A program made the translations under genes and the position numbers. This document shows positions 2,835 through 41,626 of a stretch of 64,000 bases of DNA, one piece after another. The notes beneath the pieces are model-generated. The model worked only from the letters and a program-made list of their open reading frames with translations. It ran no database searches and was not told the DNA's origin. The stretch lies in assembly GCA_008501765.1 (NCBI GenBank), contig QQUE01000004.1, forward strand, positions 124,001 through 188,000, in the 5' to 3' direction. This stretch comes from Calditrichota bacterium. Lineage in GTDB: Bacteria > Zhuqueibacterota > Zhuqueibacteria > Zhuqueibacterales > Geothermadaptataceae. Within the stretch, counting starts at the first letter, position 1. Every line of letters starts with the position of its first letter.

Positions 2835-2910
2835 TATTAGTTCTCTTTTAATTATGATAAATTCTATAAAATTAAAAATTTGTCCCTGAGGTTCACTAAT
2901 CCCATAACTA

Positions 2911-2939
2911 TAGAGCGAAAGCGTCCCGCTGAGCGGAAT
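2911..2939 (+). repeat. REP-like palindromic motif, copy 1
   Basis: Matches the motif at 3182-3210 over its full 29 bases (TAGAGCGAAAGCGTCCCGCT then GAGCGGAAT, except the final base). The stem is AGCG/CGCT around a TCC loop. It forms the left end of the internally deleted RAYT derivative that extends to about 3100. Confidence 0.8.
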
Positions 2940-3100
2940 CTTCTAAGGGTGAAAAATGACAACAACTCTCGCAGTTTCAATAATTTCCGCCAGCGAATCC
3001 TGCCAAACCACATGTTCCCGATTCGTTTTAATCCGCTTTGTTGCTTTTTTTGAAAACAATTAGCAGAGTCCGTCGCGCTCGGCGGGACGCCTTCGCGCTA
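2911..3100 (-). pseudogene. Internally deleted, non-autonomous derivative of the RAYT element
   Basis: Starts with the same REP motif as the intact RAYT element. It continues with a near copy of the RAYT 3' end (2940-2975 matches 3209-3236), then jumps to a copy of the RAYT interior (2976-3071 matches about 3391-3489), and finishes with an inverted REP-like hairpin at 3074-3100 (CGCTCGGCGGGACGCCTTCG). The jump lies at a short direct repeat present in the intact gene (AACTCTC-GCAG and AACTCTC-TCAG), so about 150 bases were lost between microhomologies. It has no usable reading frame. It looks like a MITE-type deletion product of the neighbouring gene. Confidence 0.75.
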
Positions 3101-3181
3101 TGAATGAGGGGTGGCATCAACTGCTTAATATTTTCCTATAAAATTAACCCTTTGCGCAAAAACTGATCAACTCGATAACCA

Positions 3182-3210
3182 TAGAGCGAAAGCGTCCCGC
3201 TGAGCGGAAT
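3182..3210 (+). repeat. REP-like palindromic motif, copy 2 (left end of RAYT unit)
   Basis: TAGAGCGAA followed by the AGCG-TCC-CGCT hairpin and GAGCGGAAT. It is inverted relative to the copy at 3812-3839 and in the same orientation as 2911-2939. The stop codon of the transposase gene follows 18 bases further in. Confidence 0.85.
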
Positions 3211-3227
3211 GTTCTAAGGATGAAAAA

Positions 3228-3779
3228 TTACAACAACTCTCGCAGGTCATCAATTTCAATAATTGGTTTCGTGCCGCAATCATAAAAACATGCCGATGAA
3301 TATGCATATTCACTGCGAGATGCCGCCAGTTGCCAATTTTTCGAATTTGGATTATTGTGAATATACTCGGTTTCCTTTAAGAGAACTCTCTCAGTTTCAA
3401 TATTTTTAGCCAGGGAATCTTCCCAAACCACATGTTCCCGATTCGTTTTAATCCGCTTCGCAGCTTTTTTAAAAATATTTAGCGGAGTCCATTGCTTTTC
3501 ACAGGTCAAGTCTTTGATAATTTCGTGTCCGGTATATGAATGAAACTTGCCAATCGAATAATCAATCGGCTGTTCGCTCAATTGTTTAATTATAACATGA
3601 ATAAGGTTGGGCATTAAACAAAATGCGTAAACTTTCCAAATGTTTTGCTTCCGAAACCAGGTCAAGGAGTTTAATGGAATTTGAGCAATCCTGTCATTTG
3701 TAAAAATTGAGGTATGCTCAGAAATAACGGAAGTCACAAAGTAAAGGCTTGTTGAACTTTTTGCTGTTCTGTATTTCAT
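3228..3779 (-). CDS. REP-associated tyrosine transposase (RAYT, IS200-like Y1 family)
   Basis: 183 residues, typical for RAYTs. The N-terminal part shows the conserved fold leading to AFCLMPNLIHVII at 52-64, which aligns to the family motif MPNHIHLI. Here the first histidine of the HUH metal-binding motif is leucine (Leu59-Ile60-His61). The helix with the catalytic tyrosine is present (EYIHNNP, Tyr139), as is the usual VVWEDS region. RAYTs nick and move REP palindromes, and this gene lies between two inverted REPs. Start ATG at 3779 with AAGGAAG upstream. The missing histidine suggests the enzyme is inactive or altered although the frame is intact. Family assignment is confident. Confidence 0.88.
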   Translation of the reverse strand: MKYRTAKSSTSLYFVTSVISEHTSIFTNDRIAQIPLNSLTWFRKQNIWKVYAFCLMPNLIHVIIKQLSEQPIDYSIGKFHSYTGHEIIKDLTCEKQWTPLNIFKKAAKRIKTNREHVVWEDSLAKNIETERVLLKETEYIHNNPNSKNWQLAASRSEYAYSSACFYDCGTKPIIEIDDLRELL

Positions 3780-3811: not shown

Positions 3812-3839
3812 TTCTGCTCAGCGGGACGCTTTCGCTCTA
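3812..3839 (-). repeat. REP-like palindromic motif, copy 3 (right end of RAYT unit)
   Basis: Reverse complement of the motif at 3182-3210 with one mismatch (TTCTGCTCAGCGGGACGCTT then TCGCTCTA). It lies about 32 bases upstream of the transposase start. Confidence 0.85.
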
Positions 3840-14839: not shown

Positions 14840-15096
14840 GTGCCTGGCACTTCTATAAGTTACGAAAACACTTAAAAGCTACTTTGTTTACCGTGAGTTC
14901 GAAATAAGAAGAATTGGGACAAAACGAATTAATTATAGGATATAGTCCGAAGGCGTCCCGCCGAGGATAACACACGAAACGCTCGGCGAGACGCCTTCGC
15001 TCTATTATAATTATGCTTGGTAAAGAATGTTACAGCTTACATCGAACTCACGTTTGTTTAGTTAAATTTATAAAAATCAACTAAGTGCCAGGCACA
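14840..15096. repeat. 13-bp inverted repeat pair surrounding the first 163-bp MITE
   Basis: TGTGCCTGGCACT at 14839-14851 and AGTGCCAGGCACA at 15084-15096 are exact reverse complements, and each half is itself almost palindromic. The 163-bp MITE and its target duplication lie between them. Removing those would leave a palindromic unit of about 88 bases, so the MITE probably inserted into an older REP-like element. Confidence 0.6.
14891..15053 (-). mobile_element. 163-bp MITE, copy A
   Basis: Minus-oriented copy of the family also found at 19143, 33894 and 41404. The ends are inverted copies (ACGTGAGTTCGATGTAAG type, first base changed to C here). It is flanked by a perfect 7-bp target duplication TTGTTTA at 14884-14890 and 15054-15060. 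The centre carries two facing REP-like hairpins. It has no reading frame and must be moved by a transposase encoded elsewhere. Confidence 0.88.
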
Positions 15097-18829: not shown

Positions 18830-19561
18830 TCAAATCCCTGGTGGTGATTAATATAACATAACGAATACCGTCATCCTGACTCATTTTGAACGGACAAGAT
18901 AACCCAAACTATTGTAAATTCAAAGCAAAGATTCATGGTACCGGGCCTTGCTGTAAACAGAAGTAAAATCGCAGAATCCGGATTTACAGCCCGGATTAAC
19001 TTGTAATCCCACTAAGTTTATTTTACTTATAAATTATTCAAGACCATAATTACACTCTTTTGCCGATTTTACGGAGGAATCAAACTGGCAAAGTGGATGC
19101 CTTCCCGATTTTCAGCATCGAATCCGTGAAGATTCATTTATAACGTGAGTTCGATGTAAGCTGTAACATTCTTTACCAAGCAAATTAAAATAGAGCGAAG
19201 GCGTCTCGCCGAGCGTTTCGTGTGTTATCCTCGGCGGGACGCCTTCGGACTATATCCTATAATTAATTCGTTTTGTCCCAATTCTTCTTATATCGAATTC
19301 ACGTTTTATAGATTCCACAAGAGGCGACGATAATTGAGTTTACTCCATGGCGGCGATTTAGCAAGCTTCACTGGATATTTAATGAGAAAAAACCAGAGAT
19401 TCATTGGAGGTAAGTATCAGATATTACAAAGTTCTAACCGATCTAATTTGAACTCGCAATTTCCTTGCATTTCTCGTAAAAATAGAATATTTTAACCGCC
19501 TTAGTTTCTTTGACACTTAAACCAACAACATAGATTTCATAATATGTAAAGAGGTATTCCC
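18830..19561. other. 732-base intergenic stretch with MITE copy B
   Basis: No credible gene was found. It contains the 163-bp MITE at 19143-19304. The last 250 bases lead into the aldolase gene and presumably hold its promoter, but no box could be assigned. Confidence 0.6.
19143..19304 (+). mobile_element. 163-bp-family MITE, copy B (162 bp)
   Basis: Begins ACGTGAGTTCGATGTAAG and ends with its inverted copy, one base changed (GAATTCACGT). The target duplication TTTATA lies at 19137-19142 and 19305-19310. The interior has two facing REP-like hairpins (GGCGTCTCGCC and GGCGGGACGCC). It is nearly identical to copies A, C and D. Confidence 0.88.
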
Positions 19562-23937: not shown

Positions 23938-24013
23938 CCCGATTTATTATATTCAAATAAAATCACATGTATCCGAAGTCTGAAATTCCTGAGATGCAAA
24001 AATCGCTAATATA

Positions 24014-24208
24014 ACGTGAGTTCGACATAAGGAAATTGCACTAATTTGTCTTAGCATCCCGGTTTTTGCAGCGCAATATACCGGGATATCAAACGATTAA
24101 CCCGAACAAAGGTTAAAGTGTTTTGCCTGGGAGATCCCGGCATCGCTTTGACACGCGAGCCAGGATGCCTTGTTTGGTATTCATTTTGTGCTTACACCGA
24201 ACTCACGT
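24014..24208. mobile_element. 195-bp element with the 163-bp MITE termini but a different interior
   Basis: Begins ACGTGAGTTCGACATAAG and ends CTTACACCGAACTCACGT, matching the termini of copies A-D at most positions. Between the ends the sequence is unrelated and contains ATCCCGG-type palindromic pieces (GCATCCCGG, CCGGGAT, GATCCCGGC). It has no reading frame. The flanks TAATATA and TAGTAAA match only partly, suggesting an older insertion. It shows that one transposase probably mobilises several unrelated cargoes. Confidence 0.72.
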
Positions 24209-24241
24209 TAGTAAAAATTCAGTCCCATCATTTTTTAAAAA

Positions 24242-33528: not shown

Positions 33529-34094
33529 GGCGCACCTCGAATAACAATTCCGTCGATAAATGATTAATTCTTCCCAAATTTGCGGCGAACGATTAAAAAT
33601 AGCAAAAGAATTTAAAATAGTGTTATCAGTTTGATTATTAAATCTCTATGCCTAAGTATCGACACATGTGAATGATTTCCTGTTAAAATTGGCAAAACAA
33701 GTTGCCAATTACCCGTGAAATTGGCTTGCGTTTATAGGCCGGATTGGCTACACTTAAATTGATAGAACTTTTATTTACCACGGTAGTTACAGAACCAGTA
33801 TTGCTCGGAAAATTGAAATGTTTATAGAACGCCTCTGACAATTCCACCCAATTCAATGTTCGAATTTGCAGACCGTGCAAGTACCCTTAATTAACGTGAG
33901 TTCGATGTAAGCTGTAACATTCTTTACCAAGCATAATTATAATAGAGCGAAGGCGTCTCGCCGAGCGTTTCGTGCGTTATCCTCGGCGGGACGCCTTCGG
34001 ACTAGATCCTATAATTAATTCGTTTTGTCCCAATTCTTCTTATATCGAACTCGCGTTTAATTAGTCATATCCATTACATAAGAGAGGATAAATA
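33529..34094. other. Intergenic region with MITE copy C
   Basis: 566 bases. Apart from the MITE at 33894-34056 nothing is recognised. A 65-codon minus-strand frame at 33683-33880 has no ribosome binding site or similarity. Confidence 0.5.
33894..34056 (+). mobile_element. 163-bp MITE, copy C
   Basis: Begins ACGTGAGTTCGATGTAAG and ends with its inverted copy (one change, CTCGCGT). Perfect target duplication TTAATTA at 33887-33893 and 34057-34063. It ends about 38 bases upstream of the zinc-ribbon membrane protein gene, so it may separate that gene from its promoter or supply one. Confidence 0.88.
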
Positions 34095-40786: not shown

Positions 40787-41350
40787 ATGCTGCAAAGTCC
40801 ATTTGATTTTATCCCAAAACATAAACAGAAAAATGTATTTTATTATCTTCTCTCCTTGACAATTTTAGTTTTGCTGGGGATGCAAATTTCCGGTGCGCCA
40901 CTAAAAACTGACGCTGCACCATTGGGCATCATCTCATTTGAATTTGCCGGTGATTTGGCAACCTCGCAAACAATACTCACTTCCTGGGGAATTACCGGAC
41001 GATTTTATGCCGCGCTAAACACTGGTCTCGATTTCCTCTTCCTTTTTTCCTATGCTTGCACATTCGCACTGGGCTGCGTACTTGCAGCGCGGTTTTTTGA
41101 AGGGCGCAGTGCGGTTTTGAGTCGTATCGGCGTAGTTATGGCTTGGGGGCAAATTGCAGCCGGGCTTTTTGATGCGATAGAAAACTTTGCACTCATTCAA
41201 ATGCTCATCGGTACACAGAGTGAAATTTGGCCGCAGGTAGCATTTTGGTTTGCTGCAATAAAATTTATCCTGGTGGGAATTGGCATCAGCTATCTTCACT
41301 TCAGCACAGCCTGGTTTCTCGCCTACTTTTTCGCACGAAATCGCGTTTGA
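40787..41350 (+). CDS. Uncharacterised integral membrane protein
   Basis: 187 residues from the ATG at 40787 with AAAGGACG upstream; an earlier in-frame ATG at 40712 gives only a basic, low-complexity extension. Four to five hydrophobic segments: about 19-35, 77-102, 112-135 and 145-180. A loop after the first helix reads PLGIISFEFAGDLATSQTIL, likely conserved. No enzymatic motif is visible. It stands alone between the protease terminator and a MITE. Confidence 0.7.
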   Translation: MLQSPFDFIPKHKQKNVFYYLLSLTILVLLGMQISGAPLKTDAAPLGIISFEFAGDLATSQTILTSWGITGRFYAALNTGLDFLFLFSYACTFALGCVLAARFFEGRSAVLSRIGVVMAWGQIAAGLFDAIENFALIQMLIGTQSEIWPQVAFWFAAIKFILVGIGISYLHFSTAWFLAYFFARNRV

Positions 41351-41370: not shown

Positions 41371-41626
41371 AGACGCTAAGTCCGCAAAGAAAATATTTAA
41401 ATAACGTTAGTCCGATGTAAGCTGTAACATTCTTTACCAGGCATAATTCTAATAGAGCTAAGGCGTCTCGCCGAGCGTTTCGTGTGTTATCCTCGGCGGG
41501 ACGCCTTCGGACTATATCCTATAATTAATTCATTTTGTCCCAATTCTTCTTATATCGAACTCACGTTAAATACCTATAAAACTTAATCTTGTGGGCTCTG
41601 TGGCTTTGGGAGAGATAATTTTAGTT
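41371..41626. repeat. Split 'cacgcaaagacgc' palindromic repeat surrounding MITE copy D
   Basis: CTCACGCAAAGACGCTAAGT on the left and GGCTCTGTGGCTTTGGGAGA on the right are imperfect inverted arms of a widespread intergenic repeat. The MITE and its target duplication lie between them. Confidence 0.5.
41404..41566 (+). mobile_element. 163-bp MITE, copy D
   Basis: Begins ACGTTAGTCCGATGTAAG (two changes from the consensus end) and ends CGAACTCACGT. Target duplication TAAATA at 41398-41403 and 41567-41572. The interior is nearly identical to copies A-C, including both REP-like hairpins. Confidence 0.88.

Follow-up and report, generated by a model that had tools for sequence, protein, structure and literature searches.

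REPINs, the inverted REP pairs that accompany a RAYT/TnpA-REP transposase (Nunvar 2010, PMC2817692; Bertels and Rainey 2011, PMC3116915; PMC8266576), are the closest described counterpart of the repeat analysed here. Both are made of two inverted REPs, in both an xTAG tag stands beside a stem that is broken by an internal loop containing AA, and in both a single-copy, vertically inherited RAYT gene is flanked by inverted REPs. E. coli group-2 REPs carry an AA–GC bulge needed by TnpA-REP (PMC8266576), and the bulged stem beside TAG in the present repeat resembles them. Unlike in the described REPINs, the conserved TAG is here mostly preceded by A or C rather than G (ATAG or CTAG, not GTAG), most copies lie inside TIR elements with TSDs, and the RAYT protein lacks one HUH histidine. 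The carrier, which we call MITE-A, shares IS982-type TIRs, short length, the lack of a transposase gene and a high copy number with IS982-derived MITEs such as MITECca01 of Cardinium (PMC9769881), but its interior is a REPIN, and the parental IS982 was not found in the genome under study or in two congeners.

The earlier note had taken the combination of a RAYT system with a TIR-type MITE to be undescribed, for which there are precedents. The GTAG-15 dimers of A. variabilis and the CGTC-1 dimers of H. neapolitanus are located inside long palindromes (Di Nocera 2013, PMC3733652), and QMITE2 of Coxiella burnetii is a TIR MITE of 150–190 bp with direct repeats of 7–11 bp that contains a GTAG REP (PMC5896051). 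MITE-A resembles the latter in being a TIR MITE holding a REP and the former in having REP dimers within a palindrome. The paper on QMITE2 mentions no RAYT, and the part considered here has neither a covariation test nor a REPIN common to different TIR types (PMC5896051). The palindromes of Di Nocera 2013, which also describes TIRtrons, are in the part considered neither identified as TIRs of DDE transposons with TSDs nor reported to exchange between TIR types (PMC3733652). New here are a carrier of the IS982 type, the link to RAYT, a REPIN family common to several TIR types, and the covariation.

The outer element and its terminal repeats

The window is the whole stretch of 64,000 nucleotides that was analysed; it belongs to a genome of 5.9 Mb in 21 contigs (G000). 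For comparison we used two congeners (G001 and G002) and two genomes from another family of the same class (G031 and G037). The MITE-A copy under study occupies positions 33893–34057 on the + strand and comprises, over 165 bp, a TIR of 19 bp, a left spacer of 31 bp, the REPIN of 62 bp, a right spacer of 34 bp and a second TIR of 19 bp. Three further copies with a REPIN are present in the window, at 14892–15054 (− strand), 19142–19305 (+) and 41403–41567 (+), and the four window copies are 163–165 bp long. MITE-A has no coding capacity, and its copies are mostly 94–99% identical. An unbiased census found 33 elements in 1.66 Mb of the 5.9 Mb, which scales to approximately 118 genome-wide. In all, G000 holds some 105–118 copies; the IS982-type TIR itself gave 230 matches in this genome.

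The left TIR, AACGTGAGTTCGATGTAAG (33893–33911, +), matches the TIRs around IS982 transposase genes at two loci, L300 and L319; the right TIR (34039–34057, −) reads AACGCGAGTTCGATATAAG on the − strand. The TIR pair of the family as a whole is AACGTGAGTTCGATGTAAG / CTTATATCGAACTCACGTT. Counted from ACGTG, the element is bordered by the TSD TTAATTA at 33887–33893 and 34057–34063. In a control at the level of the family, 48 of the 72 extracted MITE-A copies had TSDs of 6 bp or more, compared with a mean of 5.0 and a maximum of 12 when the right flanks were swapped, and the target bases are 85% A+T. The TIR sequence is widespread across genomes, mostly of Bacteroidota. Short elements with an IS982-type TIR and palindromic interiors were also seen in Mucilaginibacter and Bacteroides MAGs (L342:4240-4451, L285:983-1096 and L285:4425-4490).

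In L300 and L319, the same 18-bp TIR bounds elements of approximately 1.05 kb with a DDE transposase gene. Both proteins match DDE_Tnp_1_3, and that of L300 is an IS982 family transposase according to NCBIfam (E = 5.5e-72, above the cut-off). The common TIRs therefore identify MITE-A as an IS982-type MITE. Neither a protein search nor the PF13612 profile detected an IS982 transposase in G000, G001 or G002, so that the TIRs alone point to the mobiliser. A parental transposase in the same genome, by which such MITEs are also recognised, was thus not detected; as such a copy may disappear at a later time, its presence is not strictly defining. The same TIRs enclose a different double-palindrome interior without a REPIN in MITE-B (24013–24209, −), whose copies are 75–86% identical to one another and which is older than MITE-A.

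The REPIN core and its hairpins

The core of MITE-A is a REPIN of 62 bp bounded by TAG...CTA (33943–34004, +). Its two REPs, each of 25 nt and inverted relative to one another, belong to the family that flanks the RAYT gene of the window, and the two strings described in the earlier note are both there: TAGAGCGAAGGCGTCTCGCCGAGCG begins at 33943 and its inverted partner CCTCGGCGGGACGCCTTCGGACTA ends at 34004. In the left REP (33943–33967, +), the tag TAG is followed by a lower stem (33946–33948/33965–33967), an internal loop GAA/GA, an upper stem (33952–33955/33959–33962) and the loop TCT. The right REP (33980–34004, −), which reads TAGTCCGAAGGCGTCCCGCCGAGGA on the − strand, has the same hairpin. 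When the whole MITE was searched against the congeners and the two genomes of the other family, many matches covered the centre only (approximately positions 49–112 of the query), and the bounds of the REPIN, TAG to CTA, are the bounds of these matches in relatives. An Rfam search of the window gave no match.

For a covariation analysis, 107 distinct 25-mers were collected from five genomes with a search pattern that leaves columns 4, 5, 10, 20, 24 and 25 free. The three column pairs with the highest Watson–Crick excess among all pairs were 5:24 (88 observed versus 40.3 expected; GC 48, CG 31, TA 5, AT 4), 10:20 (86 versus 64.7; GC 72, AT 13) and 4:25 (45 versus 25.7), with 6:23 ranking fifth. 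For each of the three, the observed value exceeded that of all 5000 shuffles. The shuffles make no correction for relatedness, and kinship among the sequences inflates such counts. All three pairs fall into one hairpin and nest within each other, giving the order TAG, stem 4–6/23–25, internal loop GAA/GA, stem 10–13/17–20 and loop TCY. Folding of the single-stranded DNA returned exactly this hairpin for the right REP and the same hairpin minus one pair for the left REP. The REP hairpin is thus supported by covariation, and DNA folding agrees with it.

A stem change with both sides of one base pair altered had been read as a sign of conserved structure, and the shuffles bear this out statistically across REP copies. 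The particular pair singled out in the earlier note, 10:20, does covary, but it is only one of three, and the stronger evidence comes from the lower stem (5:24 and 4:25), which had been missed. The covariation at 10:20 is borne mostly by two haplotypes, and since its AT form is mostly a single haplotype, few independent events stand behind it. The pair 5:24 is the stronger evidence because it occurs in four pair types. In 20 REPINs of G002, an AT-form arm lies opposite a GC- or GT-form arm. Such a combination breaks or weakens the pairing between the two arms and leaves the local hairpins intact, which argues that the constraint is local. These REPINs therefore disfavour long-range pairing between the two REPs as an explanation of the compensatory change. 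The covariation provides a firm hairpin model for the REP class with an ATAG/CTAG tag.

The RAYT gene and its flanking REPs

The RAYT (REP-associated tyrosine transposase) gene is present in single copy at 3228–3779 (−) and encodes 183 amino acids. It is flanked by REPs in inverted orientation at 3182–3206 (+) and 3815–3839 (−), the latter lying approximately 40 bp from the gene on its upstream side. Two more REPs, at 2911–2935 (+) and 3076–3100 (−), belong to a decayed second RAYT unit, an internally deleted partial tandem copy (2904–3071, −) with blocks 85–94% identical to 3175–3490; inverted REPs delimit the deleted unit as a whole (2904–3100), and one of these has the GGCG/CGCC stem. Of the four REPs at this locus, three read AAAGCGTCCCGCTGAG and have the AGCG/CGCT stem that had been ascribed to the REPs around RAYT. 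The fourth (3076–3100, −) reads AAGGCGTCCCGCCGAG with the GGCG/CGCC stem, so that both forms occur at one locus and the ascription applies to three copies only.

The protein matches the NCBIfam model REP_Tyr_transpos with E = 2e-15 and 57 bits, below the cut-off of 80; for its ortholog in G002 the values are 5e-20 and 72 bits against the same cut-off. The two proteins are 66% identical, the gene order BNR – RAYT – GH2 is the same and REPs are located at the same places, although those of G002 carry GGCG/CGCC where G000 has AGCG/CGCT. RAYT is thus vertically inherited. The G000 protein keeps the tyrosine motif EYIHNNP, whereas its HUH motif is MPNLIH instead of MPNHxH, compared with MPNHVH in the ortholog and MPDHYH or MPNHVH in other relatives; the change from His to Leu depends on a single base in a single assembly. 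As the HUH histidines coordinate a metal ion (PMC8266576), the loss of one of them makes the G000 RAYT probably inactive. Judged from its sequence, it is probably an inactivated family member, since the G002 ortholog has the HUH motif. Just upstream of the RAYT gene of G002, approximately nine REP units with the sequence CTAAAGCGAAGGCGTCCCGGCGACCAAAA are repeated in tandem with a period of 29–31 bp (L071:1209-1462).

In G001 and G031, which both carry the REP motif, the searches detected no related RAYT, and the RAYT homologue of G037 (38%) has no such REPs around it. No relative came up when named genomes were scanned with the RAYT protein, or when PDB sequences were searched with the RAYT of G002. 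The expectation that a RAYT copy would track the repeats was not borne out, as the gene looks dead in G000 and none was detected in the motif-bearing G001 and G031.

REPINs as probable cargo of MITEs

Probably, a RAYT-born REPIN became the cargo of IS982-type MITEs, with one non-autonomous mobile element now nested inside another. This reading draws on the nested anatomy, the TSDs at the TIR ends, the covarying REP hairpin, the REP family common to MITE-A and the RAYT locus and the many MITEs compared with few free REPINs. A DDE transposase of the IS982 family, acting in trans, would have brought the outer MITE to its AT-rich sites, and the inner REPIN would represent two REPs once recognised as single-stranded hairpins by the resident RAYT. 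Either insertion or recombination at REPs may have brought this REPIN into the MITE. The IS982 transposase responsible for the spread of MITE-A would now be lost and the G000 RAYT now be inactive, and the hairpins may have persisted because the MITE carried them, together with selection on, or homogenisation of, their sequence. The copy number of MITE-A is explained by TIR transposition. The proposed link between RAYT and the MITE hence holds for the common REP family, but not for the abundance of the MITE, and RAYT looks dead. As anticipated, REP-like motifs also occur outside MITE-A, at the RAYT locus, in other genomes and as free REPINs, which are rare in G000 (L022, L027 and C3:148806-148856). 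Several points count against the cargo reading: a REPIN-less MITE-A, which would bear on the direction of nesting, was not found among the 40 of 135 candidates scored, the spacers of G000 and G002 are dissimilar, and the mobiliser is deduced from the TIRs alone. The single base behind the HUH change and the inflation of the covariation counts by relatedness also weigh against it.

The same composite is present in G002, where the length of the 62-bp core is identical and the spacer lengths are nearly so; the left spacers of the MITEs of G000 and G002 show no detectable homology and the right spacers a marginal one only. In G031/G037, the same REPIN family is found inside TIRs of the types GGGCTGTCCAAAAAG (L221, L222, L223, L237, L273) and GTGATTGACCGAAAA (L226, L231, L396), and weaker outer repeats surround REPINs at three further loci. 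The family thus occurs in at least three TIR types and two bacterial families. MITEs of G031 with GGGCTGTCCAAAAAG TIRs and another inverted palindrome, GCGAGCGAAGCGAAGCAATC...GATTGCTTCGTCGCTTCGCTCCTCGC, were seen at L454:371-499, L450:1070-1196 and L470:215-365, which suggests that palindromic cargo is exchangeable on one TIR scaffold. At L108:4451-5511 (G002:C753), entire REPIN-containing elements, approximately seven units, are repeated in tandem with a period of 176 bp.

How the REPIN came to lie within TIRs can be explained in more than one way. RAYT may preferentially insert REPINs in the middle of palindromes or MITEs, whose loops are exposed on single strands, with the composite being amplified secondarily, a possibility to which we give somewhat less than an even chance. 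It fits the occurrence of one REPIN family inside three TIR types, the REP dimers inside long palindromes of several species in the part of Di Nocera 2013 considered here, and an outer inverted repeat score of at least 20 at 14 of 52 non-redundant REPIN loci compared with 3.0 after swapping of flanks. For the G031/G037 set, 3 of 300 swaps reached the observed count, and the test is weak there because swapped flanks often share the TIR class; moreover, many REPINs have no outer inverted repeat, and no empty palindrome was found for MITE-A among the candidates scored. That the MITE gained its REP arms from free REPINs by homologous recombination or gene conversion, and not by insertion, appears rather doubtful as an origin, even though recombination at REPs is visible. 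In the chimera L028, a left half of MITE-A is followed by the right half of the free REPIN that lies nearby, in L027, and the G002 elements L242, L245 and L255 combine a MITE-type left side with a different right side. L027 and L028 (G000:C8:65273 and 66912) have similar flanks 1.6 kb apart, one with the free REPIN and the other with the chimera. Such exchange covers existing REP pairs but not the first REPIN within TIRs, and the left and right MITE arms remain distinct from each other in the genomes covered.

We consider it unlikely that the hairpins are kept for a host role, whether as a binding site in DNA or as a hairpin in RNA, with the MITE as a mere vehicle. In 28 MITE-A copies found with the core masked, differences from the consensus amount to 2/616 (0.3%) in the REP hairpins compared with 125/2881 (4.3%) in TIRs and spacers (p = 8e-9), so that hairpins are approximately 14-fold less variable. 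With private changes only, the values are 2/616 and 43/2769 (p = 0.011; p = 0.04 for GC sites alone). These private changes are few, and either selection on the hairpins or conversion between copies would give a low hairpin divergence. No predicted ORF contains any of the 28 copies (near the copy at 41403–41567, an ORF ends at 41350). The orientations of their neighbouring genes (18 tandem, 7 divergent, 3 convergent) are like the background, without a bias toward convergent positions, and a role of MITE-A as a terminator was rejected on these grounds. Mobilisation of the entire 165-bp element by RAYT, with incidental TIRs, would account for the REP family common to element and RAYT locus, but it is highly improbable given the TSDs at the TIR ends, the REPIN-less MITE-B with the same TIRs and the broken HUH motif; transposition of the IS200 type makes no TSD. 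A chance likeness of two GC-rich palindromes has nothing in its favour except the shortness of the motif and is practically excluded by 12 matches in the window at up to 3 mismatches, compared with 0.02 expected from shuffles. In G000, the motif has 215–223 matches, and a reversed-pattern control gave 0–1 per genome.

On a wider and tentative view, REPINs recurrently switch vehicles: RAYT-born pairs might enter the centres of unrelated TIR elements and then be amplified by DDE transposases, and the hairpins might outlast RAYT and still be selected inside the MITE. The number of REP copies is usually taken to reflect the activity of RAYT. As most REPs here are cargo of DDE-type MITEs and RAYT looks dead, REP abundance and RAYT activity are uncoupled. 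REPINs carried as MITE cargo offer a concrete answer to a question that Di Nocera et al. did not settle for the CGTC REPs, namely how REP families can spread without an active transposase.
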